In this document: one piece after another, positions 6,141-24,433 of the stretch | How the letters are laid out: each line of letters opens with the position of its first letter | Position numbering within the stretch: the stretch's first letter is position 1 | Virus record (IMG/VR): IMGVR_UViG_3300042861_000370 | Span: 1-40,411 of that record | Strand: one strand, 5' to 3' | DNA length: 40,411 nt | From: a virus | Made by a program: the position numbers and the translations under genes | Notes under the pieces: generated by a model | What the model saw: only the letters and a program-made list of their open reading frames with translations | Told to the model about the DNA's origin: nothing | Database searches by the model: none

Positions 6141-9100
6141 ATGCAACGTGCCGTCAATCCTCAAACTGGGGAGGTGTTGTTTCTTGTTGACAACCAATGG
6201 ACTCCTCCAGCACAAACAGCTAAAAATGACGCAGGGGATACGGCATATCTAGTAAATAATCAATGGCAGGTTGTAAAAACCGCCCGTCTTCCAGAGCCCA
6301 TTCTCTCTCCTGAAGAGCAAGTAATGGGCGCTATTGGCAAGCCATCAGAAGGCATTGCATCGCTTCAGAAACCTGGAGTACCCAAGCCCCCGTCAGAGCT
6401 GGCTATGGGCGAAGAGCTTGGCAAAGGTCTTGGTGCCGGCTTTATTGGTCTAAAGTCTACGGCTGAAAACGTTGGTTTGATGAAAGACATCGGTGCCATG
6501 AGTACCGTTCAACAGCGTCAAGACCTCTTCAATAAGATTGAAACAGGCCAAATCACAAGCCCAGATCAACTGCGTGGTTTAGATCAAACCAGTGGTCTAG
6601 GACGCGCTTACCTTGTGTCTGACCCCGCCACTCGCGAAAAATTACGTGAACGTAATGTAGGCGAGATTGGCCGCCGTACAGACTTTGTTAAAACTTCTTT
6701 GTCTGCTATTGACCAGTACCAAAAAGACGCCCAGAAGTACCAAGGACGCACAACAGACTTAACAGATGTTGAAGGCGCTAAAGACTTTGCCAACTGGTTA
6801 GCTTTTAACTTTGGCTCTGGTGCTGTTCAGTTAGCTCCTCTCATGCTTGCCGCCGTTACTACGGGTGGTGCTGGTGTTGCTTTGCTTGGTACAACCATGG
6901 GCACTGGCGAAGCTATAGGCAACCGACTAGAGTTTCTGCAAGAGAAGATCAAGAGTTCGCCAGAGCTATCGCCTAATGAGCGCGCGGCTATGGTCATTGA
7001 CTATGTTAAGAAGACTGGCGATACATCACTGGCCGTTGGTATTGTCAGCGGTGCTTTGGATTCAGTGTTAGGCCCAGCGGCAACCTTGGCCAAGCGCGGT
7101 CTGGGTGAAGTCGTTAAGGGCGAGACTCGTAAGGAAGCACTTAAAGCCGGCGTTAAAGAAATCCCCAAAGGGATGGGTCAAGAGTTTATTACTGGTGGAG
7201 CTCAAGAGGCTACCCAGCTTGGTGGTGCTTTAGCTGAAAAAGAGATTGATGAGTTCTTAACAAAAGAGAATGCTAAGAAGATCCTCAATGCCGCTGCAGC
7301 CGAAGCCGCCGGTTCACTTGCTGGTGGTGCCGCCACTACGGGAGCCCGTGTCTATGGTGCTGATAGGGCTATCAGGGCAGGAGAAAAGCGAGATGCAGAG
7401 ATCCAAGCACTTCAAGGGCAGATGTCTGAGCTTGATGATCTTCTTAAGACTGTATACGAAGGCCCACCTTCTGCCGAACCTACTGCCCCTACACCTACTC
7501 CTGCGCCTGTTGCCCCAGAGGCTGGTATTGCTGGGTTAATGCCACCAGCCGCGCCAGTTGAACAGCCTACCGCCCCTGTGGCCGAAGAGGATCAGCCAGC
7601 TCAAGATTTAGATGCCATGCTTAAAGAAGCACTGGCCGCAACGGGTTCTGATATTTTCACTGAAAATATGCCCGAGGCTCAAACGCCTGTAGCTTCTGAA
7701 GAGCCACCATCTACTGAGCTGATCAAAGAGGTTCTGCCAGAACTAAAGTTGTCAGATAAGTTTGGAACTTTACCTGTTGGTGAATACAGCGTACAAGGTA
7801 CGTTTGAGCAAGATGGCCGTAAGTGGCAAGTTGAGTCTTTAGGTAGATCGGGTGATGGCTTGGTCGCTCAAACCGTTGACAAAGGCGAGCCTGTGCGCAG
7901 AGCCTTCCGATTTGAAGAGCCTGTCAATCCTAAGATTCAAGAGTTGTTGGAGATAAACAATCAGCTGGCGAAGGCTGGTAAGGCCAAAGAAACAACTTAC
8001 GACAAATTAAACGAGATGCTCAAAGAAAAGGCATCTTTTGGTCGTGGTTCTGTAGATGAGTTTATTGACAGAAGCATTACTCATGGCAAAGAAATGCTTG
8101 CCAAACAAAAGCCAGCGGCCAAGCCAGCCGCGCCAGCTGTCAATCCTAAAGTGCAGGATCTGTTAGAGCTTGAGAACCAAAGCAGGGAAAACAGAGGCCA
8201 GAAGCCAATGACTTACGCGCAAGCGGAGAAGATGGTCAATGACGATGTTGAGAATAACCTTGAGTTTGGTGACTTTGATTCTTCTTTAAAGCAGTTAACT
8301 GAAGAAGCTAGAAACAGACTTAAATATGATGCAGAGGCTGGAAAATCCCCAGCTTCTACAGTCAACATTTCCAAGACCGGAGAGATGTTGCGGGGCAAGC
8401 CATTTACGCCTGATGAAGACGATAAGAAGGCTATTGAGATTTACAAGAAGATCAAGGCGGATAACCCTGACGCTGATGTAGATGAACAAATAGCGAACCC
8501 CAATAGATTCCACCCTGTTAAGGAAGAGGCAAACAGCAAAGGCATCAAGATTGGTGATTTGGTTTACAGAAAAGGCGAGTCAGAGCCTGATATAGCTACT
8601 ACTGTTTACAACGATAGGGTTAAATTAACTGATAGGAAGACCGGCAATAGTGGCTTTGAAAACATTGACCTTGTCAGCAAAGAGCCAATCCCATACGACT
8701 ACAACTTTAACTTTGGCTATGGCGAAATTGACGTCAATGTCAATGAGTGGAACAACAACAAGAACCAATGGCAGTTCAGTATGTATGGCCCCGGAGCCAG
8801 CAGTACTGGATTCCGTTCTGAGCTGGGCGTTTATTTTAAAGGTACGCCCGGAACAAAAGAATTTGATAACTTTGTTGAATCCGTTGTCAGCAAAAGCACG
8901 GCAGACCGCCCTCAACAGATAGCTAAAGAAAAGAAAGAAGCCGAAAAGAACATGACTCCTGAACAGCGCAAACAGCGCAGGGAGCAAGAATCAGCGGCTG
9001 ATAAAGAACGTTTAGCAAAAGAGGCTGCTGAGAGCGAAGAAAGAACCAAGGCAAGGAATGAGCTGAAGACTGAGATTCAGGAGTACATGAAGAAAAACAA

Positions 9101-12100
9101 GATTGGCATTTACTCGCCAATGCCTTCGCTAAAGACAGCGATGGAGACAATCGAAAAGCTCAAGAAGGGCAATAAGACTGACCCCCGAGCTGAAGGCTGG
9201 ATGAAGGGTCAAGGCATCATTTGGACGCCTGAAAAGAATCCTCAGTTTACCCGTATGGGTAAGCGGTTTGTGCAAGAGGTGTACAAACTTAACCAGAAGT
9301 TGACTGAAGAGCAACGTGCTTCTGGCACTGAGGACGCTACTGTCCTTAAGGCTGCTGTAGACAAAGCCAACGCTATCACTGAAAAAGAGCGTAAGAAAGC
9401 TATTGCTGACAAACAGAAGGCGATTGAAGCTCAGAACATTGACAAAGCCAAGATAGAGCAAGCTGACCAAGACATTGAAAAAGCCTTGGGTGATTTGGCT
9501 ATGCTGATCACAAAGGGCACACGCCTGAACATGATGCCAGAGGATGAGCAAAAGCTCATGCCTATCCTGACCACATTGATGGATGCGTCATTCCGCAAGG
9601 GTTACTACAAGTTTAAAGAAGCCGCCCGTTATGTGATGGATCTGATCCGTTCACAGTTGGGTCATGACTTTGCTGATGAAATTACTTTGGATCAGCTCCA
9701 AGGTGCATACATTGGTATGGCCGGTAGATACCAAGAACAAGGTGCGAGCTCCAAGAAAGAAGTTATTGCTGTTGAGTCTTTGTCAGAGATTGACGAAGTA
9801 TCCGATGAGCTCGTAGCTGAAGAAACTGAAGAAGCTCCTGAAGGCATGGACATTAACGATCCAGACGCCAAGTTCCAAGTTGCTCAAGAGATTTCCCAGT
9901 CGTTCTTAAACAATGGTGAATATCGCGACATCACAGAAGCTCGCAAAGCTATCTCTGAGATGACTGGCGAACCAATCAAGCCGGGCACTAAAGAGGCCAA
10001 AGCGGCTGACGAAGCTATTGAGGCAGGCGTGGTTATGGCCGCGCGTCAGATCATCGCTAAAGGCCGTAAGGATGAGCTTACAAGTGGACAGATCTACGAC
10101 AAGCTGGTTGATCTGTATGAGCGACAGCCTAACTTGAATGTACGTAGTTCTACTAGCGTTGCAGAGCAAGCCTACTCAACCCCTGCTCCATTGGCTTTTA
10201 TTGCCTCTGAGCTGGCAGGAATCACCAACAAGACTACTGTGTACGAGCCTACAGCTGGTAACGGTATGTTGGTAATTGGTGCTAATCCAAAGAACGTTGT
10301 TGCCAATGAGTTGAACAAAGATCGCTTTGAGATGCTGTCACGCATCCTTGAAGGCGCTGAAGTTGTCAACAAGAACGGCATGACGTTCCAGCCACCAATC
10401 AGCGAAGTCGTTATTGCTAACCCACCGTTTGGTGCAATTGGCGAAGAGGTGTCAGTCAATGGCATTAAGACCAGAGAGATTGACCACGCTATTGTCTATA
10501 ACGCATTAACAAGAATGCAGGCTGATGGCCGTTCTGTTCTGATCGTTGGTGGTATACAGGCTAAGACAGAAGATGGCCGCCGTGAAGGCTATCGTGGCGC
10601 ACAAAAGCGCAACTTCTACTACAACCTTTACAAAGACTACAACGTTGTTGACCACTTCACTGTGGGCGGCAATATGTACAGCAAGCAAGGCACAACATTC
10701 CCCGTTGATGTCATTGTGATTGATGGCAAGGGCCAATCGCAGCGTAATCTTCCAGCAGCAGATCTGCCTGAGTTGATTACATCCTACGAACAATTGAAGG
10801 AGAAACTAAATGATCGCATGGTATCCAGAGGAGATCGTGGCACCGCCAGAGCTGACATCGGTGAGGGTGCCGAAGGGCGAGTTGAGCCAGAAGGAGTGGA
10901 TCGAGGCGCTGTCGGAGAGGGTGAGCCAACTGGCGGAGAAAGAGGAAGACCCGCTGGAGGCGGCGAACGAGGCGTGTCGGAACCTGAATCTGCCCGAGGT
11001 GGACAGCGCGAACCAGCTGGGGGACGCACTGGTGAAGTACAACCTAGACCTACTGACGAATCTGAACGTGATGCAGAAGGAAGACCTGTTTCCGGCACAG
11101 GTAAACGAGGAGAAGCCGGCGGCAAGGCAGGCACTGAAGGACGTAAGCCTAGCGAACTGGGTGGAGTTAGCGTTGTCTCAGGTGAGCGTGTCGGATCTGG
11201 ATTAACAGAGCGCGCTAAGAAAGAAGAGGAAACCACTAATCAGGTTTCTTACACCCCTCATTCACAGGCTACAGCTGTTGGCACTTTGGTGCCTAAAGCC
11301 ATGGCTCAAGCCATCGAGGACTCTATTGCTAAAGTAGAAGCTGAAGTTGGCAACATTGATGAGTTTGTTGCTGAACAGCTTGAGATGGATCCAGAAACCC
11401 TGCGCGAGCAGTTCTCTGCCGAACAGATTGACGCATTGGTCTTGGCCATTCGTAATGCTGAAGAGGGTAAGGGCTTCATCATTGGCGATCAGACTGGAGT
11501 AGGTAAAGGCCGTGTCGTTGCGGCCATGATTAAATACGCGCTTAACACTGGCAAGATCCCAATCTTTGTTACTGAGAAGCCCAACTTGTACTCGGACATG
11601 ATCCGAGACTTGGACGATATTGGCATGACAAATGAGCTTGGTTTAGACACAGCCAAGCCAAGGATCTTTATGACCAACAGTAGTGGGTCAGTGCCATACA
11701 CTTTGATTCGTACTGTCAAAGGCGAGCCAGTTGAAAACAATCTAATGCTCAAGCCGGTCAAGTCTTCTGGGCTTGATGAAGTTATGAAGCAGATGGTTAA
11801 GAATGACAGTTTAGGTAACTACAAGGTTATCTTTACAACATACAGCCAGTTGCAGAGCGTCAAGGGCAAACCCACAGAGCGTCAAAATTTTATCAAGCAC
11901 TTTGGTGCTGGTAACTACATGATCTTTGACGAAAGCCATAACGCTGGTGGAGCTGGTGTTGAGCCGGGTAAAGCTGAGAAAGAAGCAGGCGTCAACATCG
12001 GCCAAGGTCGTTCTGGCTTTGTGCGTAACTTAGTTAAAGCAGCTGACGGCACATTCTTCTCATCTGCCACATACGCCAAGCGTCCTGATGTGATGGACTT

Positions 12101-15100
12101 GTATTCCAGTACTGATATGAAGTTGGCTGTTGATAACATCACCCAGCTGTCGGACGCGATCAAGGCTGGCGGTATTCCGATGCAACAGACTGTGGCTAAT
12201 ATGTTGACTCAAGCGGGTCAATACATTCGCCGTGAGCGTACCTTTGCTGGTGTGTCATACGACACACAAGAAACCAAAGTAGACAAAGATACAGCCGAGA
12301 ATATGGCTACATCTATGCGCGACATCCTTGCCTTCTCGCGTGAGAAGGAAGGTGTTGTTAAGAATTTGCAGAAGTCTTTGGACGCGCAAGGTGCCCGTGC
12401 TGGTGTAGAAGGCGAAAAGACCACAGTCCAAGGCGCAAACTTTGGCTCAATCATGCACAACTTGATTGACCAGATGCTATTGTCATTAAAGGCTCAAGAC
12501 TCTGTGCGCCACGCCATCGAAAGATTGAAGGCCGGTGAGAAGGTTGTGTTGACTGTGTCCAACACCATGGGCCAATTTTTGAAAAACTACGCCGATGACA
12601 TGGACATCAAAGTTGGCGATCCTGTTAACTTGTCATTTGCTGATCTGTACATTCGCTACTTAGACAAACAGCGGATGGTCACAATTACAAAGCCAGGTGG
12701 CGTAAAAGAACAGTACAGGCTGACCGATGAAGATTTGGGGCCAAACTTGGTCAACCGCTACTATGAGATTACTAATTTCATTCGTGGTGCTGGGTTTGGA
12801 TCTGCTCCCATTTCCCCAATTGACTATATGCACAGCGAGCTTCGTAAGGCTGGATATAAGACCGAAGAGATCACAGGCCGTACAGCTACCCTCAACTATG
12901 AGAGTGGCAAACCTTTATTGACTACACGTTCAGCCAACATTAAGCAACGGGTTAATGCTGTTAAATCGTTTAACAATGGTGACTCTGATGTCATCATCTT
13001 AAATCAGGCCGGCTCTACTGGTTTGTCTTTACACGCTAAAGCATCATTCAAAGATAAGCGCAAGCGTCACATGATCATTGTTCAGCCTGAGAAGAACATT
13101 GACACCCATATGCAGATGCTTGGCCGTGTACACCGCACTGGTCAGGTTATTGCGCCTGCGTACTCACAGATGATGGCCGACATCCCTGCTGAGATGCGTC
13201 CTGCAGCCGTCCTGCTTAAGAAGATGGCATCCTTAAACGCTAACACCACAGCTTCCCGTAAGTCTGCCGTGTCAGCCGAGGGTGCTGTTGACTTTATGAA
13301 TGACTACGGCGGCCAAGTTGCACAAGAATTCTTGCGTGATAACCCCGGCATCCATGGAGATTTGGGCGGCAACAAGATTGCTCAAGTTAAAGAAAACACA
13401 GAAGATGCTAGCGAAGAAGACATTCGTAAGCTGACTGGTTACATTCCAATCCTGCCACTTAAGGTGCAAGAAGAGGTTTACAAAGACCTTATTGAACGCT
13501 ACAACGAATTGATCGAGCGTGAAGACAGCATGGGCTCCAACAAACTGGAAGCCAAGGCTCAAGACTTAGATGCTCAGACAGTTAGCTCTGTTGCAATTAC
13601 CGAAGATAAAGGTGAGCCTTCTATCTTTGCCCAGCCTGCATACATGGAAAAGGTTGACGTTAGACGAACAGTCAGACCTTATTCAAAAGACGAAGTTAAA
13701 GAGCAAGTCAAAGAAGCTTTAGATGGTAAAACTCCAGCTGAATATTCTAATGATCTTAAACGTAGCATAGATGAACCATTTAAAAAGTACTATGCTGAAC
13801 GTATTGCTGACGCAGAAGCATCTAGTGCAGATCCAATTAAACTGATAGGGATCAGAGCCAACCTTAATAGTGATCTTGAAAGGGTGCAAACAATTCTTGA
13901 CACCTATCGTTTAGGTACGCCTGTCGCCATTAAAAATGTCAATGGTGTGTTTGTTTATGGTGTTGTAAGCGACATTAGACGCAAAGGTAAGACAAAGAAT
14001 CCTGCGGCTGGTTCGGACTGGAAGATGACTTTGTCTTTGGCTAACGGTGATGCCAAGTCTTTGCCCCTGACGTTCTCTCAGATTGGCAGCTCTTATATGC
14101 TGGATGAGCAACCTGAGATTCAGTACCTTAATCCAGATACTCTTGAGAACGAGCGTATTCCTTTGATGGATTTGTTTGACCGTGGCGCTACTGTTCGCCG
14201 TGAGAAGCGTTGGATGGTGACTGGCAACATCTTGTCTGGTTTTGCAGAAGTCAACAACATGGGTACGATCTTGTCGTACACCAAGAACGATGGTACGACT
14301 GGTCAAGGCATCTTGATGCCCCGCACGTTTGACTTTGAAAAACAGCAAAAGAATGCTCCGGTCAGACTTCGAACTGCTAATGATGTTATGCGCTTCTTTG
14401 GCCAGTTTGGCAGCCGTTCAATGGTTTCAACGCCAGACGCCGTTTTGCGGATTAAGAGCGAAGGCTACGGCGGCCTTAAATTCATTACCTCCAGCTCCAA
14501 GCGTGAAGGCGGTACATTCTTCCTAGATAAAGGTTTAACAGACATTGTTGGCGACTTCTATAAGAGTGGCTCAGTAATGTCTGCCGCTGTCTATAACGAA
14601 GCCAAAAGTAGGCAAGCTCTTGAATACATTCTGAACGAACGTCAAGAGTCTTTAATTGCGGCGACTGACCAAGACAAAGCGCGTGAGATGTTCGCACCCA
14701 AGGACATCCCGTTGTCTAGCATTAAGTTTGACAACGAGAGGTTGAGCATCAATCCGGCCATGAATATTGCCATGGATCGTGAAGCTTTGATCCGTAAGTA
14801 TCAGGCAGTGCGTCAGAAGAGCGCGGCCATCTCTGCTAAGTTTGCCAAAGGTGAGGCAGGACTAGATGAGCAGAAGGCTTTGACGTTCCTTAAGCAGTCT
14901 GCCAATGACCTAAAAGAAGACATTAAAGACACCAAGCCAGCAGGCCGTCTTGCTAAGAACTTCTTTGCCAAGGCTACTGCTGACTGGAACAAAGACCTAA
15001 TCAGCGATGACGTTTATGACGTTATCAGAACTTTGCATGACAAGTATCCAGACGTCTTGGAAGGCCTGCAGTTTTCTATTAAAAAACAGCCAGAAGGTAA

Positions 15101-18100
15101 GGACGTAATTGGAGACTTCTTCCCCTTCCCACGCATTGTGCGTTTGTACAAGGGTACAACTGGTGTAGTTGATCCAGAGGCTATCCGCCATGAGATCGTT
15201 CACAGTCTTGAGCAGATGATGGAAGCCCCAGCCGTGCGAGCTTTGGTTGATGACTGGTCTGATAAGTTGGGTGCGGCCATCAAAGCCGAGAAGTCAGCTG
15301 CCGGCCAGAAGTACTTCCGTAATGTGTTGGAGATGCTTAATAGCCCGAGTTTGGAAACCTACCAAACGGCCATTGATTCCATGCCATCAATGAACTATTA
15401 CCAGTATCTGAACCCCTCAGAATACTGGGCTGTTAACGCTGAGAAGCTGATGGCGCGTAAGCTGGGCACAGGCTGGGACAAGTTTGTGTTAGCGGCCAAG
15501 CGTTTGTTTGAAGGCCTGAAGTTTATGTTTGGTTTTGATAACCAATACATTGTTCAGAGAACCTTTAACAACATCATGAACAGCCGTCAAGAGCGTTTCC
15601 ATACACGTTCTTTAAATAACTACATCACAAAAGAATCTATTCCCTTGGCCAACATGGTCAAGAACTACAAGGGTGGAGCTGGCGCGTTGGCTACATGGGA
15701 ATCAGCAGCAGATACTAGCCTTGCCAAGTTTCAGTATCAAATCGTTGACAAGCAAGTTGATACACGCATGGTGGTTAAGTCCATCACTGAGCAGATCGGT
15801 GACATCCGAGATCAGCATGACCCAGCCTTGCAGGAAACCCTGTATCACAGTGCTAAATCCAGCAAAGTACAAGACTTCTTAAAAGACAATCTGCGTCCAT
15901 TTGTTGAGCAGATGCGCAAGATGGGCGTGGAGTATCGTGACTTTGAGCACTATCTCCATATGCGTCATGGCAAGATCCGCAATGACATTGTGGCCAAGCG
16001 CAACCCAGCTATGCCAGATGGCGGCTCTGGCATCTTCAATCAAGAGATTGATGACTACTTTGCCGGGAAAGATAACTCAAAGCTGACACCAGCTGATGAG
16101 GCCAAGTACAAAGAATTGGCCAAGACAGTCGATAAGTGGGTTCAAGAAACTCAGGACTTGCTAATCGCTTACGGCCTTGAAAAGCCTGAGACTATTGCCG
16201 CATGGCGTGAGAAGCTCCCCTTCTACGTTCCTTTAAAGCGTGATCCAGATGAGCTGGACTACGTGACTCCAGGTTCTGGTTTGGGTCAGGGCTTTGCAAC
16301 CCGTGGTGACTTCTCTAAGACTGCGACTGGATCGTACAAGACTGTTGTTGACGTATTAGCCAACATCGCTCTCCAGCGTGAAGCGGCAATTATCCGTGGC
16401 GAGAAGGCCAAGGTAGGCCGTGCTCTGTATGCGTTGGCCATCCAGAATCCTAACCCTAACTTCTGGAAGCCCGTTAACCCTGACGCTATTCGCAATAAGA
16501 AGAAGCTCAAGGAGGAGATGGCCGGCTTTAACCTGACAGTGGCTGAAGCTGATGCTTTGTTTGCAGAGCCAGCCTCACCACGTATAGATCCAGCTACTGG
16601 TTTGGTTGAGTACAAGGTTAACACTGCGCTGCGGAACTCTCCTAACGTGTTTGCCGTGCGTGTTAATGGCGAAGACCGATTCATCTTCTTTAATCCCGGC
16701 GAGCCCCGTGCCAAGCGCATGGCCGAAGCCTTAAAGAACTTGGATGCCAATCAGCTAGAAGGTTATCTTGGTACTGTGGCTGAAGCGACTCGCTTGATCG
16801 CGGCCATGAACACCCAGTACAACCCTGTGTTTGGTGCATGGAACTTTGTGCGAGATGTCTTTGGTGGCACCATTAACTTGGCAAGCACAGAGATCAAAGA
16901 TAAAAAGATGCAAGTATTGGCTGGCTCTATCCCAGCTCTGCGCGCAATCTTCACTGATCTACGTGGCATGAAAGAGTCTGTCGCTGGCATTGTCAGTGAC
17001 TCAGAGCAAAAGGAATGGATTGCACTGTGGAAACAGTTTAGAGAAATCGGTGGTATCACTGGCTACAGCGAGCAGTTCAGCCGTGCAAAAGACAAAGCAT
17101 CCATTGTCGAGCGTGAGATGGCTCGCTTGGATCGTGGTAATGCCCGTAGGAAAGCTGATGCTGTCCTAGACTGGCTGTCTGACTACAACGATGCAATGGA
17201 AAATGCCGTGCGTCTGTCAGCGTTTAAGGCTGGACTAGACAAAGGCATGACACCTCAACGTGCCGCTTCTTTGGCCAAGAACTTGACTGTTAACTTCAAC
17301 AAGAAGGGTCAAGCCACTGCTAATGCAAATGCCCTGTATGCGTTCTTCAATGCTCGCGTCCAAGGCACAACCCGCATGATGGAAGTGCTGGTTGATAAGA
17401 AAGACGGCAAGTTCACAATGACCGGCGTTGGCAAGAAGATCATTGCCGGCGGTATGTTGTTGGGTACTGTGCAGGCTCTGGCTTTATTGGCGGCAGGCTT
17501 TGATGGCGATGAGCCACCAGACTTCCTCAAAGACAAGAACTTGATCTTGCCTACCTTTGGTATTGGTGGTGAGAAAAAGTATTTGATCGTCCCCATGCCT
17601 TTGGGCTGGAACCTGTTCCCCAACATTGGCCGTGAGTTGACTGAGTATGTCTTGATTAACTCTGGTCAGATGAAGGGCAGACGCAAGATTACCCAGACGA
17701 TTACAAACATTGCAGCTCAAGTGGCTGATATGTTTAACCCGTTGGGCGCTGGCGGTGCGGCCAATCTGCTTACGCCTACGTTGGCAGATCCGATTGTTAA
17801 TGTGCTGGCAACAAACAAAGATACGTTTGGCCGTCCAATCTCACGCGAAAGCCGCGAGACAACACCGACTCCAGGTTGGGAGCGCAGTCGTGACAACGCC
17901 ACTAGCTTGAGTAAAGCTTTGGCTTACGGCATAAATTACCTGACTGGCGGTGGTGAGGATGGTATTGGTTTGGTTAGTCCTACAGCCGACCAGCTGGACT
18001 ACCTTGCCAAAGAGTACGCCGGTGGTGTTGGCCGTGAGATTACCAAGGCCGTTCGCTACGTTGGTAAGAAGATAGAGGGAGAAGAGGAGATCCCATCCTA

Positions 18101-18443
18101 CTCTGTGCCAATCCTTGGCAAGTTGTATGGTGAGCTCGATACTCCTTCGGCTGCAGCTGATAAGTTCTACAAGAACATTAAAGCCATGGCAGAGCATGAG
18201 GGCACTATCAAGCGAATCAAAGAGCGCAAGGGTGATGTCAGCGAGTATCGCAAAGAAAATAAAGAAGCTTCAGCAAGGCTTATAAACCGCGCAAACTATG
18301 TTGAGACTGAGGTTGCCAGATACAACAGAGAGATTCGCGCAATGTATAAGAAGGAAGCTCCTGAGAAGGAAATTAAAGCTAAGAAAGATAAACGTGATGC
18401 CGTGATGAAGGCATACAACGAAGAGGTCAGACGAGCCCAATAA
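6141..18443 (+). CDS. Giant polyvalent protein: N6-MTase-like + SNO/SNF2 helicase + HExxH + LPD38-like (DarB type)
   Basis: This 4100-residue protein is about 30% of the window. Order: two short LVDNQW/LVNNQW repeats (residues 10-45); Gly/Ala-rich hydrophobic stretches (about 215-263 and 384-408); a Pro-rich linker (about 440-500); charged coiled coils (about 925-1100); an N6-adenine methyltransferase-like domain with EPTAGNGML (about 1369) and NPPF (1427-1430); a Gly/Arg/Glu linker (1557-1688) overlapping another gene; a helicase with Walker A GVGKGR (about 1786), DESH (1930-1933) and motif VI GRVHRTGQ (2328-2335); an HEIVH zincin-like motif (3017-3021); and a C-terminal part (about 3549-3837) like large polyvalent protein domain LPD38. 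Proteins of this kind (P1 DarB and relatives) are packaged in virions and protect incoming DNA from restriction. A protective, injected role here is inferred. The start uses a weak AGGA at 6131. The stop overlaps the convergent HNH-type gene by 17 bases. Confidence 0.88.
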   Translation: MQRAVNPQTGEVLFLVDNQWTPPAQTAKNDAGDTAYLVNNQWQVVKTARLPEPILSPEEQVMGAIGKPSEGIASLQKPGVPKPPSELAMGEELGKGLGAGFIGLKSTAENVGLMKDIGAMSTVQQRQDLFNKIETGQITSPDQLRGLDQTSGLGRAYLVSDPATREKLRERNVGEIGRRTDFVKTSLSAIDQYQKDAQKYQGRTTDLTDVEGAKDFANWLAFNFGSGAVQLAPLMLAAVTTGGAGVALLGTTMGTGEAIGNRLEFLQEKIKSSPELSPNERAAMVIDYVKKTGDTSLAVGIVSGALDSVLGPAATLAKRGLGEVVKGETRKEALKAGVKEIPKGMGQEFITGGAQEATQLGGALAEKEIDEFLTKENAKKILNAAAAEAAGSLAGGAATTGARVYGADRAIRAGEKRDAEIQALQGQMSELDDLLKTVYEGPPSAEPTAPTPTPAPVAPEAGIAGLMPPAAPVEQPTAPVAEEDQPAQDLDAMLKEALAATGSDIFTENMPEAQTPVASEEPPSTELIKEVLPELKLSDKFGTLPVGEYSVQGTFEQDGRKWQVESLGRSGDGLVAQTVDKGEPVRRAFRFEEPVNPKIQELLEINNQLAKAGKAKETTYDKLNEMLKEKASFGRGSVDEFIDRSITHGKEMLAKQKPAAKPAAPAVNPKVQDLLELENQSRENRGQKPMTYAQAEKMVNDDVENNLEFGDFDSSLKQLTEEARNRLKYDAEAGKSPASTVNISKTGEMLRGKPFTPDEDDKKAIEIYKKIKADNPDADVDEQIANPNRFHPVKEEANSKGIKIGDLVYRKGESEPDIATTVYNDRVKLTDRKTGNSGFENIDLVSKEPIPYDYNFNFGYGEIDVNVNEWNNNKNQWQFSMYGPGASSTGFRSELGVYFKGTPGTKEFDNFVESVVSKSTADRPQQIAKEKKEAEKNMTPEQRKQRREQESAADKERLAKEAAESEERTKARNELKTEIQEYMKKNKIGIYSPMPSLKTAMETIEKLKKGNKTDPRAEGWMKGQGIIWTPEKNPQFTRMGKRFVQEVYKLNQKLTEEQRASGTEDATVLKAAVDKANAITEKERKKAIADKQKAIEAQNIDKAKIEQADQDIEKALGDLAMLITKGTRLNMMPEDEQKLMPILTTLMDASFRKGYYKFKEAARYVMDLIRSQLGHDFADEITLDQLQGAYIGMAGRYQEQGASSKKEVIAVESLSEIDEVSDELVAEETEEAPEGMDINDPDAKFQVAQEISQSFLNNGEYRDITEARKAISEMTGEPIKPGTKEAKAADEAIEAGVVMAARQIIAKGRKDELTSGQIYDKLVDLYERQPNLNVRSSTSVAEQAYSTPAPLAFIASELAGITNKTTVYEPTAGNGMLVIGANPKNVVANELNKDRFEMLSRILEGAEVVNKNGMTFQPPISEVVIANPPFGAIGEEVSVNGIKTREIDHAIVYNALTRMQADGRSVLIVGGIQAKTEDGRREGYRGAQKRNFYYNLYKDYNVVDHFTVGGNMYSKQGTTFPVDVIVIDGKGQSQRNLPAADLPELITSYEQLKEKLNDRMVSRGDRGTARADIGEGAEGRVEPEGVDRGAVGEGEPTGGERGRPAGGGERGVSEPESARGGQREPAGGRTGEVQPRPTDESERDAEGRPVSGTGKRGEAGGKAGTEGRKPSELGGVSVVSGERVGSGLTERAKKEEETTNQVSYTPHSQATAVGTLVPKAMAQAIEDSIAKVEAEVGNIDEFVAEQLEMDPETLREQFSAEQIDALVLAIRNAEEGKGFIIGDQTGVGKGRVVAAMIKYALNTGKIPIFVTEKPNLYSDMIRDLDDIGMTNELGLDTAKPRIFMTNSSGSVPYTLIRTVKGEPVENNLMLKPVKSSGLDEVMKQMVKNDSLGNYKVIFTTYSQLQSVKGKPTERQNFIKHFGAGNYMIFDESHNAGGAGVEPGKAEKEAGVNIGQGRSGFVRNLVKAADGTFFSSATYAKRPDVMDLYSSTDMKLAVDNITQLSDAIKAGGIPMQQTVANMLTQAGQYIRRERTFAGVSYDTQETKVDKDTAENMATSMRDILAFSREKEGVVKNLQKSLDAQGARAGVEGEKTTVQGANFGSIMHNLIDQMLLSLKAQDSVRHAIERLKAGEKVVLTVSNTMGQFLKNYADDMDIKVGDPVNLSFADLYIRYLDKQRMVTITKPGGVKEQYRLTDEDLGPNLVNRYYEITNFIRGAGFGSAPISPIDYMHSELRKAGYKTEEITGRTATLNYESGKPLLTTRSANIKQRVNAVKSFNNGDSDVIILNQAGSTGLSLHAKASFKDKRKRHMIIVQPEKNIDTHMQMLGRVHRTGQVIAPAYSQMMADIPAEMRPAAVLLKKMASLNANTTASRKSAVSAEGAVDFMNDYGGQVAQEFLRDNPGIHGDLGGNKIAQVKENTEDASEEDIRKLTGYIPILPLKVQEEVYKDLIERYNELIEREDSMGSNKLEAKAQDLDAQTVSSVAITEDKGEPSIFAQPAYMEKVDVRRTVRPYSKDEVKEQVKEALDGKTPAEYSNDLKRSIDEPFKKYYAERIADAEASSADPIKLIGIRANLNSDLERVQTILDTYRLGTPVAIKNVNGVFVYGVVSDIRRKGKTKNPAAGSDWKMTLSLANGDAKSLPLTFSQIGSSYMLDEQPEIQYLNPDTLENERIPLMDLFDRGATVRREKRWMVTGNILSGFAEVNNMGTILSYTKNDGTTGQGILMPRTFDFEKQQKNAPVRLRTANDVMRFFGQFGSRSMVSTPDAVLRIKSEGYGGLKFITSSSKREGGTFFLDKGLTDIVGDFYKSGSVMSAAVYNEAKSRQALEYILNERQESLIAATDQDKAREMFAPKDIPLSSIKFDNERLSINPAMNIAMDREALIRKYQAVRQKSAAISAKFAKGEAGLDEQKALTFLKQSANDLKEDIKDTKPAGRLAKNFFAKATADWNKDLISDDVYDVIRTLHDKYPDVLEGLQFSIKKQPEGKDVIGDFFPFPRIVRLYKGTTGVVDPEAIRHEIVHSLEQMMEAPAVRALVDDWSDKLGAAIKAEKSAAGQKYFRNVLEMLNSPSLETYQTAIDSMPSMNYYQYLNPSEYWAVNAEKLMARKLGTGWDKFVLAAKRLFEGLKFMFGFDNQYIVQRTFNNIMNSRQERFHTRSLNNYITKESIPLANMVKNYKGGAGALATWESAADTSLAKFQYQIVDKQVDTRMVVKSITEQIGDIRDQHDPALQETLYHSAKSSKVQDFLKDNLRPFVEQMRKMGVEYRDFEHYLHMRHGKIRNDIVAKRNPAMPDGGSGIFNQEIDDYFAGKDNSKLTPADEAKYKELAKTVDKWVQETQDLLIAYGLEKPETIAAWREKLPFYVPLKRDPDELDYVTPGSGLGQGFATRGDFSKTATGSYKTVVDVLANIALQREAAIIRGEKAKVGRALYALAIQNPNPNFWKPVNPDAIRNKKKLKEEMAGFNLTVAEADALFAEPASPRIDPATGLVEYKVNTALRNSPNVFAVRVNGEDRFIFFNPGEPRAKRMAEALKNLDANQLEGYLGTVAEATRLIAAMNTQYNPVFGAWNFVRDVFGGTINLASTEIKDKKMQVLAGSIPALRAIFTDLRGMKESVAGIVSDSEQKEWIALWKQFREIGGITGYSEQFSRAKDKASIVEREMARLDRGNARRKADAVLDWLSDYNDAMENAVRLSAFKAGLDKGMTPQRAASLAKNLTVNFNKKGQATANANALYAFFNARVQGTTRMMEVLVDKKDGKFTMTGVGKKIIAGGMLLGTVQALALLAAGFDGDEPPDFLKDKNLILPTFGIGGEKKYLIVPMPLGWNLFPNIGRELTEYVLINSGQMKGRRKITQTITNIAAQVADMFNPLGAGGAANLLTPTLADPIVNVLATNKDTFGRPISRESRETTPTPGWERSRDNATSLSKALAYGINYLTGGGEDGIGLVSPTADQLDYLAKEYAGGVGREITKAVRYVGKKIEGEEEIPSYSVPILGKLYGELDTPSAAADKFYKNIKAMAEHEGTIKRIKERKGDVSEYRKENKEASARLINRANYVETEVARYNREIRAMYKKEAPEKEIKAKKDKRDAVMKAYNEEVRRAQ
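7650..7670. repeat. 21-base palindrome, copy 1 (inside polyvalent gene)
   Basis: The core ATATTTTCACTGAAAATAT (7651-7669) is a near-perfect palindrome. The 21 bases 7650-7670 are the exact reverse complement of 23154-23174. It lies in the coding sequence around residue 504, just after the Pro-rich linker, so the protein tolerates it in a low-constraint segment. A third, slightly longer copy lies at 35255-35276. Confidence 0.8.
10810..11205 (+). CDS. Candidate overlapping gene embedded in the polyvalent gene
   Basis: A 131-residue reading frame lies wholly within the polyvalent gene in another frame. The ATG is preceded by AAGGAG at 10797-10802 with 7 bases spacing, one of the best ribosome binding sites in the window. 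The product has a balanced, foldable composition with amphipathic helices (for example LSQKEWIEALSERVSQL, then DSANQLGDALVKYNLDLL) and ends QVSVSDLD. In the same bases the polyvalent frame encodes only a low-complexity Gly/Arg/Glu linker (residues 1557-1688). This is what is expected if the embedded frame is the constrained one and the large protein merely reads through. I do not recognise the product. Its existence is inferred from the ribosome site and composition. Confidence 0.55.
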   Translation: MIAWYPEEIVAPPELTSVRVPKGELSQKEWIEALSERVSQLAEKEEDPLEAANEACRNLNLPEVDSANQLGDALVKYNLDLLTNLNVMQKEDLFPAQVNEEKPAARQALKDVSLANWVELALSQVSVSDLD

Positions 18444-22610: not shown

Positions 22611-23072
22611 ATGTTAAAGATTGGAATAGACCCCGGACTGTCTGGCGCCATCGTCATCATGGATATGAACTGTCCTGTTGAGTGGCACCGGATGCCCACA
22701 ATGAAGACTGGCTCGGCAAATCGTGTGAACGCGCCAGCTCTGGCCGCAATCATCAAGCCGTATTTGTATTTGGATAAGAAACTCTGGGCGTATGTTGAGC
22801 TGGTCAGTAGTATGCCCGGCCAGGGTGTTGCTTCGATGTTCTCGTTTGGCCACTCAGCTGGCGTAGTGCAAGGTGTGCTCGGTGCTTTTGAAATATCTGT
22901 GACGATGGTGACACCCAGTCAGTGGAAGAGAAGCGCGGGATTAACTGGTCAGGACAAGGATGCTTCGAGGACGTTGGCTATACAGATGTGGCCGTTCTGG
23001 CGTGAGCTGGATAAAAAGGGAGCCGGCCAAGCGTATGCTGATGCAGCTCTAATTGCAGTTCATGGAAATTAA
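22611..23072 (+). CDS. ruvC: RuvC-like Holliday junction resolvase
   Basis: A 153-residue protein with the RuvC/RNase H fold signature: KIGIDPGLSGAI (D7), a strand ending AYVEL (E63), and the C-terminal GQAYADAALIA (D144). The position three residues before D144, usually Asp or His, is Ala141, so one metal ligand may differ. It would resolve branched DNA made by the ERF/nuclease system before packaging. The ATG at 22611 is used because the conserved fold begins there; the open frame extends upstream into the divergent promoter, which is not credible. It is the only gene between the divergent promoter region and the terminator at 23124. Confidence 0.82.
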   Translation: MLKIGIDPGLSGAIVIMDMNCPVEWHRMPTMKTGSANRVNAPALAAIIKPYLYLDKKLWAYVELVSSMPGQGVASMFSFGHSAGVVQGVLGAFEISVTMVTPSQWKRSAGLTGQDKDASRTLAIQMWPFWRELDKKGAGQAYADAALIAVHGN

Positions 23073-23123
23073 TGTAGAATAAATTCCGGCAATGCAGTTG
23101 CCTCCTTTGTTGGGTTTACCTTA

Positions 23124-23153
23124 CCCCCGAACTAATCACTCGGGGGCTTTTTT
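23124..23153 (+). terminator. Rho-independent terminator after ruvC
   Basis: A perfect 7-bp stem CCCCCGA (23124-23130) / TCGGGGG (23140-23146) is followed by C and six T. A small hairpin GGCAA-tgcag-TTGCC (23088-23102) precedes it. It separates ruvC from the non-coding region. Confidence 0.85.
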
Positions 23154-23174
23154 CATATTTTCAGTGAAAATATC
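23154..23174. repeat. 21-base palindrome, copy 2
   Basis: The core ATATTTTCAGTGAAAATAT (23155-23173) directly follows the ruvC terminator and begins the long non-coding region. The 21 bases are identical, inverted, to 7650-7670, and near-identical to 35255-35276, which has one extra central G. Confidence 0.8.
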
Positions 23175-23189
23175 AACACGCATGGGGAT

Positions 23190-23297
23190 TGATGCCAGTC
23201 TTTATGCGCGTTGGTGGTAAACGGGTTAGCGCCGTGCGTTGTTCCTTAGTTCGGTTTTAATGCCAACACTGCTTCATGTGCCCACCAACTTTTTTTT
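23190..23297 (+). ncRNA. Small structured RNA ending in a terminator (module copy 1)
   Basis: The closing stem GTTGGTGG (23210-23217) / CCACCAAC (23282-23289) is perfect over 8 bp and is followed by eight T, so it is terminator-like on the plus strand. Inside it lies the hairpin ACGG-GTTAGCG-CCGT (23221-23235) and the element AACACTGCTTCATGTG (23265-23280). Both elements recur in the same order at 23485-23549, again within a perfect but different closing stem. No credible reading frame is present. The 5' end is not determined. It might be a separate small RNA or the first domain of the RNA that follows. Confidence 0.6.
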
Positions 23298-23306
23298 CGT
23301 AGGGTA

Positions 23307-23335
23307 TTGCACAACGCAAATATCTTTGATATAAA
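23307..23335 (+). promoter_or_regulatory. Promoter of the large non-coding RNA
   Basis: -35 TTGCAC (23307-23312), 17-base spacer, -10 TATAAA (23330-23335). The predicted start is near 23342, just before the long three-tier hairpin and just after the T-rich terminator of module 1. Confidence 0.6.
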
Positions 23336-23341
23336 CGAGCT

Positions 23342-23931
23342 GTTACTGTTGCGAGTGACAAGTCGAGGCCACTTATGGCTATATTCCGCCTTACCTAATG
23401 CTTTCGTGGGAGAGATATTAGGCAAGGTCGCAACCGGAATGTAGCCTTAAGTGGCCTTTTCGTTTTTGAGACTGGGATTGTGTTGCGGGTTAGCGCCGCA
23501 AGCTCCTAAAGTGGACGAAATGTAGTTTTGAAAAACACTGCTTCATGTGGATAGTCCCAGTCTCACCCTCGCACAGTAGCCGTAAGGCTGCGTCAACCAC
23601 GCGGGGCAGAAATCTCCCCGTGACCACAACCAGACCAGACCCCGATGGCGGAAGCAAGGGGAAGACTGTAAAGGCCAAACTCGGTGTGACCCGCACCTCC
23701 TAGTAGAGTAATCGAACGGAATAAACAAGGATGTCGAAAGACACATACCCTAGTACGCTGGGAGTTGATCGTTAAGGATGGTGCAAACTGACCTTATCGG
23801 GATCTCAGGGGAGGGCGGCTTGGCTGGCCGGTAGCTCACTTAACAACTGGGCAAAGCTCCTTGATAATGAGACGCTGATCCTTTAGCCTACCCAGTGGGG
23901 GAGGGAGGGTTGTCGGGTAAGAGGGCTTTTT
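23342..23931 (+). ncRNA. Large structured phage RNA (GOLLD/ROOL-like in character, family unassigned)
   Basis: About 590 bases without a credible protein gene but dense in stems. A three-tier hairpin (23366-23457) stacks AGGCCACTTA/TAAGTGGCCT, GGCTATATTCCG/CGGAATGTAGCC (one G-U) and CCTTACCTAAT/ATTAGGCAAGG (one mismatch). Module copy 2 (23467-23565) is closed by an 11-bp perfect stem. Then follow a GUAA tetraloop hairpin (23576-23591), a GGGG/CCCC hairpin (23598-23622), another with an apical GAAGCA (23640-23661), a GGTG/CACC hairpin (23674-23688 region), a GAAA tetraloop hairpin (23732-23743), and a TAAGG/CCTTA stem (23773-23796). The end is a bulged stem AGCCTACCC/GGGTA..GGCT with five T (23885-23931). 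Large ornate RNAs such as GOLLD and ROOL occur in phages and have this size and style. I cannot assign the family without a covariance search. Confidence 0.65.
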
Positions 23932-23947
23932 GGTGGTAACATAACAG

Positions 23948-23977
23948 TTGACTCATCGTTAATTCATGAGTTATATT
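23948..23977 (+). promoter_or_regulatory. Promoter of the early plus-strand operon with inverted repeat
   Basis: -35 TTGACT (23948-23953), 18-base spacer, -10 TATATT (23972-23977). The inverted repeat ACTCAT (23951-23956) / ATGAGT (23966-23971) fills the spacer, a likely operator. The first gene begins 20 bases after the -10 with a strong AGGAGG. Confidence 0.6.
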
Positions 23978-23996
23978 ATTAACACAGGAGGTTAGT

Positions 23997-24164
23997 ATGG
24001 AAAACGAGACAACAAGACGCTATCCACGCACCATGCACGAAGCGTTTAATTGCGATAGTGAACCCATCAGTGGGCCATATGGTAAGGAGCCAGTCTGGCC
24101 AACGTATGCGATCTTCTTCATTGTGATTGTGGCTGGGATCATTCTGTTCTGGAGCAAAGCATGA
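23997..24164 (+). CDS. Small single-pass membrane protein
   Basis: A 55-residue protein with AGGAGG just before the ATG at 23997. The N-terminal half has RRYPRTMHEAFNCD, a motif that recurs in small phage proteins. The C-terminal half (about residues 37-51, from YAIFFIVIVAGIILF) is one transmembrane helix, followed by a short end. It is the first gene of the early operon and its stop overlaps the next start (ATGA). It might act at the cell envelope. There is no sign that it is a holin beyond size and the single helix. Confidence 0.65.
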   Translation: MENETTRRYPRTMHEAFNCDSEPISGPYGKEPVWPTYAIFFIVIVAGIILFWSKA

Positions 24165-24433
24165 CCCAAGATGCAATCAAGACGTATGAGGCCATCATTG
24201 CCAACATGGCAAAGTTATTAGAAGTTCAACAGAGCCGTGAAAGCGTAGTGATGGACATGGTTGCGGAGGCTATTAAAGTTGAGCGTGAGGCGTGTGCAAA
24301 GATTGCTGAAACGCCTATTGGAGAATATGAGGTGGTTGTGGCTTGCGGGACTGAGCCAACACCGCATCGCATCCCTCAATATGCAAATTGGCAAGATATT
24401 GCAAAAGCCATCCGAGCAAGGGGACAAGCATGA
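24161..24433 (+). CDS. Small early phage protein, unknown function
   Basis: A 90-residue protein, start coupled to the preceding stop. A long N-terminal helix (residues about 5-50) contains EREACAKIAE and the C-terminus has WQDIAKAIRARG. Proteins with this REACAKIAE...IRARG pattern are common in phage early regions and have no known function. Confidence 0.62.
   Translation: MTQDAIKTYEAIIANMAKLLEVQQSRESVVMDMVAEAIKVEREACAKIAETPIGEYEVVVACGTEPTPHRIPQYANWQDIAKAIRARGQA

Follow-up and report, generated by a model that had tools for sequence, protein, structure and literature searches.

The window analysed here, a virus record of 40,411 bases (40.4 kb), carries two copies of a previously uncatalogued, folded phage RNA of ~80 bases, which almost certainly represents a new three-helix family absent from Rfam. 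It counts at least 385 copies at no fewer than 362 loci, nearly all in IMG/VR phage contigs, where a copy was counted only if P1, P2 and P3 all pair. Each runs from the closing stem P1 through 0–7 nt, hairpin P2, a linker, hairpin P3 and 0–4 nt to the returning strand P1′. P1 has a mean of about 11 bp and can be of any sequence, P2 is capped GG-GUUAGCG-CC, and the P3 loop is UGCUUYAU, with a variable P2–P3 linker that is usually 20–45 nt long. The fold is well established and the job of the motif is one that we infer: by analogy with the HK022 put RNA, we give a probability of a little under 40% to a promoter-proximal leader that acts in cis on the transcription elongation complex.

The window encodes terminase, portal, helicase, primase, ParB-like, Erf-like and RuvC-like genes, and both modules sit in a noncoding gap of ~0.9 kb that extends from the RuvC-like gene to a small ORF at ~23,996. 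This gap as a whole folds well above shuffled sequence (z −6.2); energy folding of the single modules is weak evidence (z −1.4 and −1.8), and the minimum free energy structure of module 1 favours another P2. A preliminary description had proposed two paralogous RNA modules with a common GTTAGCG loop, a common 16-mer and stems that differ yet still pair. The loops are indeed found at 23225 and 23489 and the 16-mer AACACTGCTTCATGTG at 23265 and 23534, and the differing stems do pair, with slightly corrected coordinates. A 13-mer, CGGGTTAGCGCCG, is also common to both modules (23222 and 23486), and neither the 13-mer nor the 16-mer occurs again in the 40,411 bases of the window. The covariance model of the family (R1) scores the modules at 61.3 and 63.0 bits, with E-values of ~1e-16 that are inflated because both are in its training set, and the next best site in the window reaches 9.6 bits.

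Module 1 is a complete motif on the plus strand (23210–23289, 61.3 bits). Its P1 pairs GTTGGTGG with CCACCAAC (23210–23217/23282–23289), and its P2 pairs ACGG with CCGT (23221–23224/23232–23235) around the GUUAGCG loop (23225–23231), followed by the linker. The end of the 16-mer, CAC-TGCTTCAT-GTG, is a hairpin that the preliminary description had missed; this is P3, which in module 1 reads CAC-UGCUUCAU-GUG (23267–23280). Eight T residues immediately follow P1 (23290–23297, plus strand), making P1 and T8 together terminator-like, and close relatives of the window have at this site either a similar T-tract or, instead, a ribosome binding site and a glutaredoxin-like ORF. Just 5′ of module 1 lies hairpin B (CAACACGCATGGGGATTG..., 23172–23217, plus strand, fold z −5.6), which has GTTGG in common with module 1 P1.

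Judged by its sequence, module 2 belongs to an RNA distinct from that of module 1 and has a promoter-like element to itself, TTGCAC-17-TATAAA (23307–23335, plus strand), which aligns with TTGACA ... TATAAT in relatives. Adjoining module 2 on its 5′ side is a hairpin of very high stability, GGCCACTTA...TAAGTGGCC, and then TTTTCGTTTTT (23362–23464, plus strand, z −8.95). The motif itself is again complete (23467–23565, plus strand, 63.0 bits), with an 11-bp P1 of TGAGACTGGGA and TCCCAGTCTCA (23467–23477/23555–23565), a P2 of TTGCGG and CCGCAA (23483–23488/23496–23501) around GUUAGCG (23489–23495), and P3 at 23536–23549. A structured noncoding 3′ domain follows (23566–23940, plus strand); it is near-identical in L038 and differs in other relatives, and is kept only among close relatives.

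Scanning IMG/VR with the 16-mer returned 104 stretches, most with GGGTTAGCGCC 30–60 nt to the 5′ side and with stems that are different but matching. When a covariance model was built and phages were searched, as the preliminary description had suggested, P1, P2 and P3 were all found to covary, and copies with conserved loops and unpaired stems, which it had named as the refuting outcome, did not appear. Membership of the three-helix family (R1) comes with compensatory changes in P1, P2 and P3 and with retained GUUAGCG and UGCUUYAU loops. With 91 nonredundant copies aligned by MAFFT, independently of the model, covariation was 0.472 versus 0.152 for shuffled alignments, and the score collapsed when the stem partners were slid. 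An alignment of 71 distinct copies that includes P3 variants gave 0.746 versus 0.169 shuffled, a score that leans towards the model because this alignment was fitted to it; here both sides had changed in 356 cells versus 105, and 92.8% of cells were paired versus 30–45% when slid. P3 was tested separately because the early search patterns had fixed it as CAC/GUG. Among the matches listed from a scan that demanded neither A nor U at the respective sides of the middle pair, this pair was compensated and Watson-Crick in all 121 variant copies (G-C 67, U-A 45, C-G 9), and the outer pair was compensated in five of five variants. P1 averages 11.1 bp as observed and 4.9 bp when its arms are swapped between phages. 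The P2 and P3 loops are nearly invariant, with rare variants GUCAGCG, AUUAGCC and GCUAGCG, an invariance to be read with most loop bases already demanded by the search patterns. Junction bases are not conserved across copies, and a set of 96 linkers differ from one another by more than 30%. The copies are related, so that the counts given here are not numbers of independent events, and the IMG/VR scans are biased to the patterns used, on contigs that are fragments with mechanical gene calls. It is uncommon to find a structured phage RNA that numbers hundreds of members and covaries this clearly.

A loop–loop contact had also been proposed, between the TGCTTC of the conserved loop and GAAGCA in the loop of a later hairpin. 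GAAGCA is present at 23651–23656 and lies only partly in a loop, as its G and C are predicted to be paired (unpaired probability 0.02–0.07), closing a GGAA tetraloop. Within 450 nt of the motif, GAAGCA is missing from 29 of 37 module-2-type relatives, and none has it at the place seen in the window; with the contact not conserved and the GC of GAAGCA itself paired, we set this pairing aside. If a loop–loop contact exists, the better candidate is the AGC of the P2 loop with the GCU of the P3 loop. Dedicated scans found no coordinated changes of these loops, and the AGC and GCU bases are invariant, and therefore covariation cannot test the contact. A possible complementarity of the loops to 16S rRNA helix 18 was dropped, the string being absent from the three genomes checked.

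The motif is present once in most phages and twice in window-like phages. Of 30 viral records searched whole, 28 have a clear motif, 24 of them a single copy and four (L017, L038, L061 and L076) two, and L006 and L079 gave chance-level weak matches only. Outside the window-like group, two copies per locus were also seen in L382, where they stand in tandem ~100 nt apart, and in L421, L288 and L208. Bacterial genomes hardly ever carry the motif. In Variovorax (L125) a copy lies close to an AlpA-like gene that stands next to a VgrG gene, and L465 is a further motif-bearing genome from the order of Variovorax. A Vreelandella contig with the motif also carries phage terminase and portal genes, and the genome contigs L110 and L112, whose motif segment is identical to that of this phage contig, were counted with it as one. 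Most remaining matches in bacterial genome contigs were discarded by eye, their stems being unpaired. No convincing copies were found in the best cultured terminase relatives HTVC027P, HTVC023P, 023Pt_psg01 and DSL-LC04 or in SNF2-helicase relatives. Nucleotide searches with 15.5 kb of the window and with the whole of L195 found no related phage genome, nor did a search with 601 bases of L018 spanning motif and tRNAs, whose listed matches fall at the L018 tRNA genes. L466 and L269 (Rhizobium phage RHph_TM3_14A) hold exact GGGUUAGCGCC cap hairpins with a closing stem but lack P3, and these may be truncated forms or due to chance. In Rfam 15, the window and seven loci had no match and 15 further loci matched tRNA only; permissive searches of window positions 22900–24200, L195 and L129 placed nothing over the motif, giving weak chance-level matches for the window and none such for L195 and L129. 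No description of the motif was found in open PMC papers.

Placement at the start of transcription units, often with P1 at +1 of a sigma70-type promoter, is close to certain. Of 262 distinct contexts among the matches listed, 70 have a TATAAT-like −10 box that ends 5–7 nt short of P1, versus about one per position away from this peak, and a −35 box often accompanies it; this spacing has transcription starting (+1) at or close to the first P1 base. Under a looser rule, ~40% of contexts have a promoter before the motif, 16% hairpin B and 13% a U-tract, and 31% were assigned none of these. Intrinsic terminators are enriched on the motif's strand in the 500 nt upstream, and from this concentration it follows that transcription units begin with the motif. 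Copies of the module-2 class themselves come after a terminator-like hairpin. Terminators also come soon after the motif (40–200 nt) in L444, L346, L024 and L018, standing between motif and ORF in L346 and after two tRNAs in L018.

What follows the motif is diverse. Among the matches listed, a Shine-Dalgarno sequence and ORF lie within 130 nt of 217 of 385 copies and fall into 49 sequence groups, although some of the short ORFs are perhaps not real genes. With 97 copies, the largest of these groups is a DUF7307-like gene that a single clade carries next to an SNF2 helicase. No universal partner protein was found: among the matches listed, each neighbouring protein family occurs at 105 of the 362 loci or fewer. 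In 3.09 Mb of motif loci, 18 of 20 tRNAs are downstream of the motif and all 20 are on its strand, with eight starting 19–23 nt after P3, although loci near phage tRNA genes are a minority (14 of 361). Other copies precede a long structured noncoding RNA. The family is tied to both transcription starts and tRNA genes.

HK022 put suppresses termination through the β′ zinc-binding domain of RNA polymerase. By description, put RNA is our nearest precedent in position and size: it is protein-free, ~70 nt long and composed of two long stem-loops, one after the other, plus an RNA triplex, and putL lies just downstream of its promoter (PMC9378689). The motif resembles it as a structured, promoter-proximal candidate of ~70–80 nt that occurs in one or two copies per phage and may need no protein, though not every copy is promoter-proximal; it differs, in a comparison by description only, in that P1 encloses both P2 and P3, and several copies lie shortly before terminators. 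If the likeness extends to mechanism, the motif would emerge as a 5′ leader, with P1 at +1 in many copies, the two invariant loops would dock the folded leader on RNA polymerase, and the bound polymerase would change its processivity, as with HK022 put RNA. The unrelated downstream genes, the want of a universal phage protein and the tRNA and noncoding carriers together argue for action in cis on a common host factor; the first of these disfavours a metabolite switch, the lack of a common neighbour gene disfavours a phage-encoded partner, and the tRNA and noncoding contexts disfavour control of translation. We regard it as rather doubtful that the family is a widespread, phage-protein-free RNA class which, placed 5′ on mRNAs, tRNA transcripts and noncoding RNAs alike, reprograms a universal host machine; that machine may be RNA polymerase or a different shared factor that handles RNA. 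The motif would then be an RNA-only counterpart of lambda N/nut across many uncultured phages, and, if it is put-like, RNA-only control of host polymerase would be far commoner than the HK022 relatives imply. The two invariant loops offer a small set of mutations for direct functional testing.

Several observations sit poorly with an antiterminator. Terminators at short range, or T8 in module 1, are odd elements to find after it, and both the position of the module-2 class behind a terminator-like hairpin and the usual single copy per phage count against this reading. The terminators weaken simple antitermination and keep alive, as a somewhat unlikely alternative, an RNA that acts in trans, either small and stand-alone or as one domain within larger phage noncoding RNAs, its ends set by the +1 promoter and by a terminator or the processing of an adjacent tRNA. 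The T8 end of module 1, the terminators shortly 3′ of the motif in L444, L024 and L018, structured motif-bearing arrays of hundreds of bases and the tRNAs directly 3′ of the motif all fit such an RNA, and GOLLD and ROOL are also found near phage tRNA islands (PMC12286853). Some relatives resemble these noncoding RNAs in having long structured arrays, but the motif core is ~80 nt rather than 600–800, many copies lead ORFs, and the GOLLD and ROOL Rfam models have no match in the tested window and loci. Of 112 nonredundant contexts that have a supported co-directional gene downstream, 38 have it starting within 150 nt, and a convergent gene is next in only 13 of 125, which favours the cis leader. 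Protection of the 5′ end, in which P1 would bury it and a tertiary fold would block decay by RppH and RNase E, agrees with a P1 that starts at +1 and mostly pairs over 7–18 bp, and is neutral to the kind of gene downstream. A plain stem would suffice for this, however, leaving the two invariant loops unexplained, the motif is internal in the module-2 class, and tRNA precursors have little use for such protection, making it improbable.

A riboswitch, in which a metabolite would stabilise the three-way junction and P1, can draw on invariant loops with freely varying stems, and P1 might compete with hairpin B, given their common GUUGG, with the P1–T8 of module 1 and window-like phages, or the pre-ORF terminator of L346, as its platform. 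Purine-class three-way-junction riboswitches likewise have a closing P1 and two hairpins whose loops could pair (here AGC/GCU), but the junction of the motif, the usual ligand site, is not conserved, its downstream genes lack a common function (49 groups, tRNAs and noncoding RNA), it has no common expression platform, and it is nearly exclusive to phages. CUCCU, like the 16S anti-Shine-Dalgarno tail, occurs in 54 of 310 distinct linkers versus ~4 when shuffled, which would suit a switch; as an anti-Shine-Dalgarno for the copy's own ORF it was rejected, since pairing was 4.14 both with that ORF's Shine-Dalgarno and with another phage's. With the tRNA contexts also against it, we hold a riboswitch to be quite improbable. 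A self-cleaving ribozyme, or a processing site that separates transcripts, would suit a compact fold with conserved loops placed between genes and tRNAs, and is very improbable given that a motif at +1 has nothing upstream to remove and that, the loops apart, no base is conserved that would mark where cleavage occurs.

Hairpin B (CCAACACGCAUGGGGAUUG ... CAGUCCCCAGCCGUGUUGG) recurs beyond window positions 23172–23217 next to the motif of many relatives, among them L129, L137, L158, L192 and L224, often in tandem with variable inserts that build structured arrays of several hundred bases adjoining the motif, with a tRNA coming after the array in L158 and L224. UUGUGCA is found in 9 of 96 linker types versus 0.2 expected. 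In the window, a single ORF of 4100 aa (6141–18443) takes up ~30% of the phage genome, and an exact 22-bp sequence with an imperfect palindrome, CATATTTTCAGTGAAAATAT, occurs once inside this ORF (7649–7670, minus strand) and once just 5′ of module 1 (23154–23175, plus strand).
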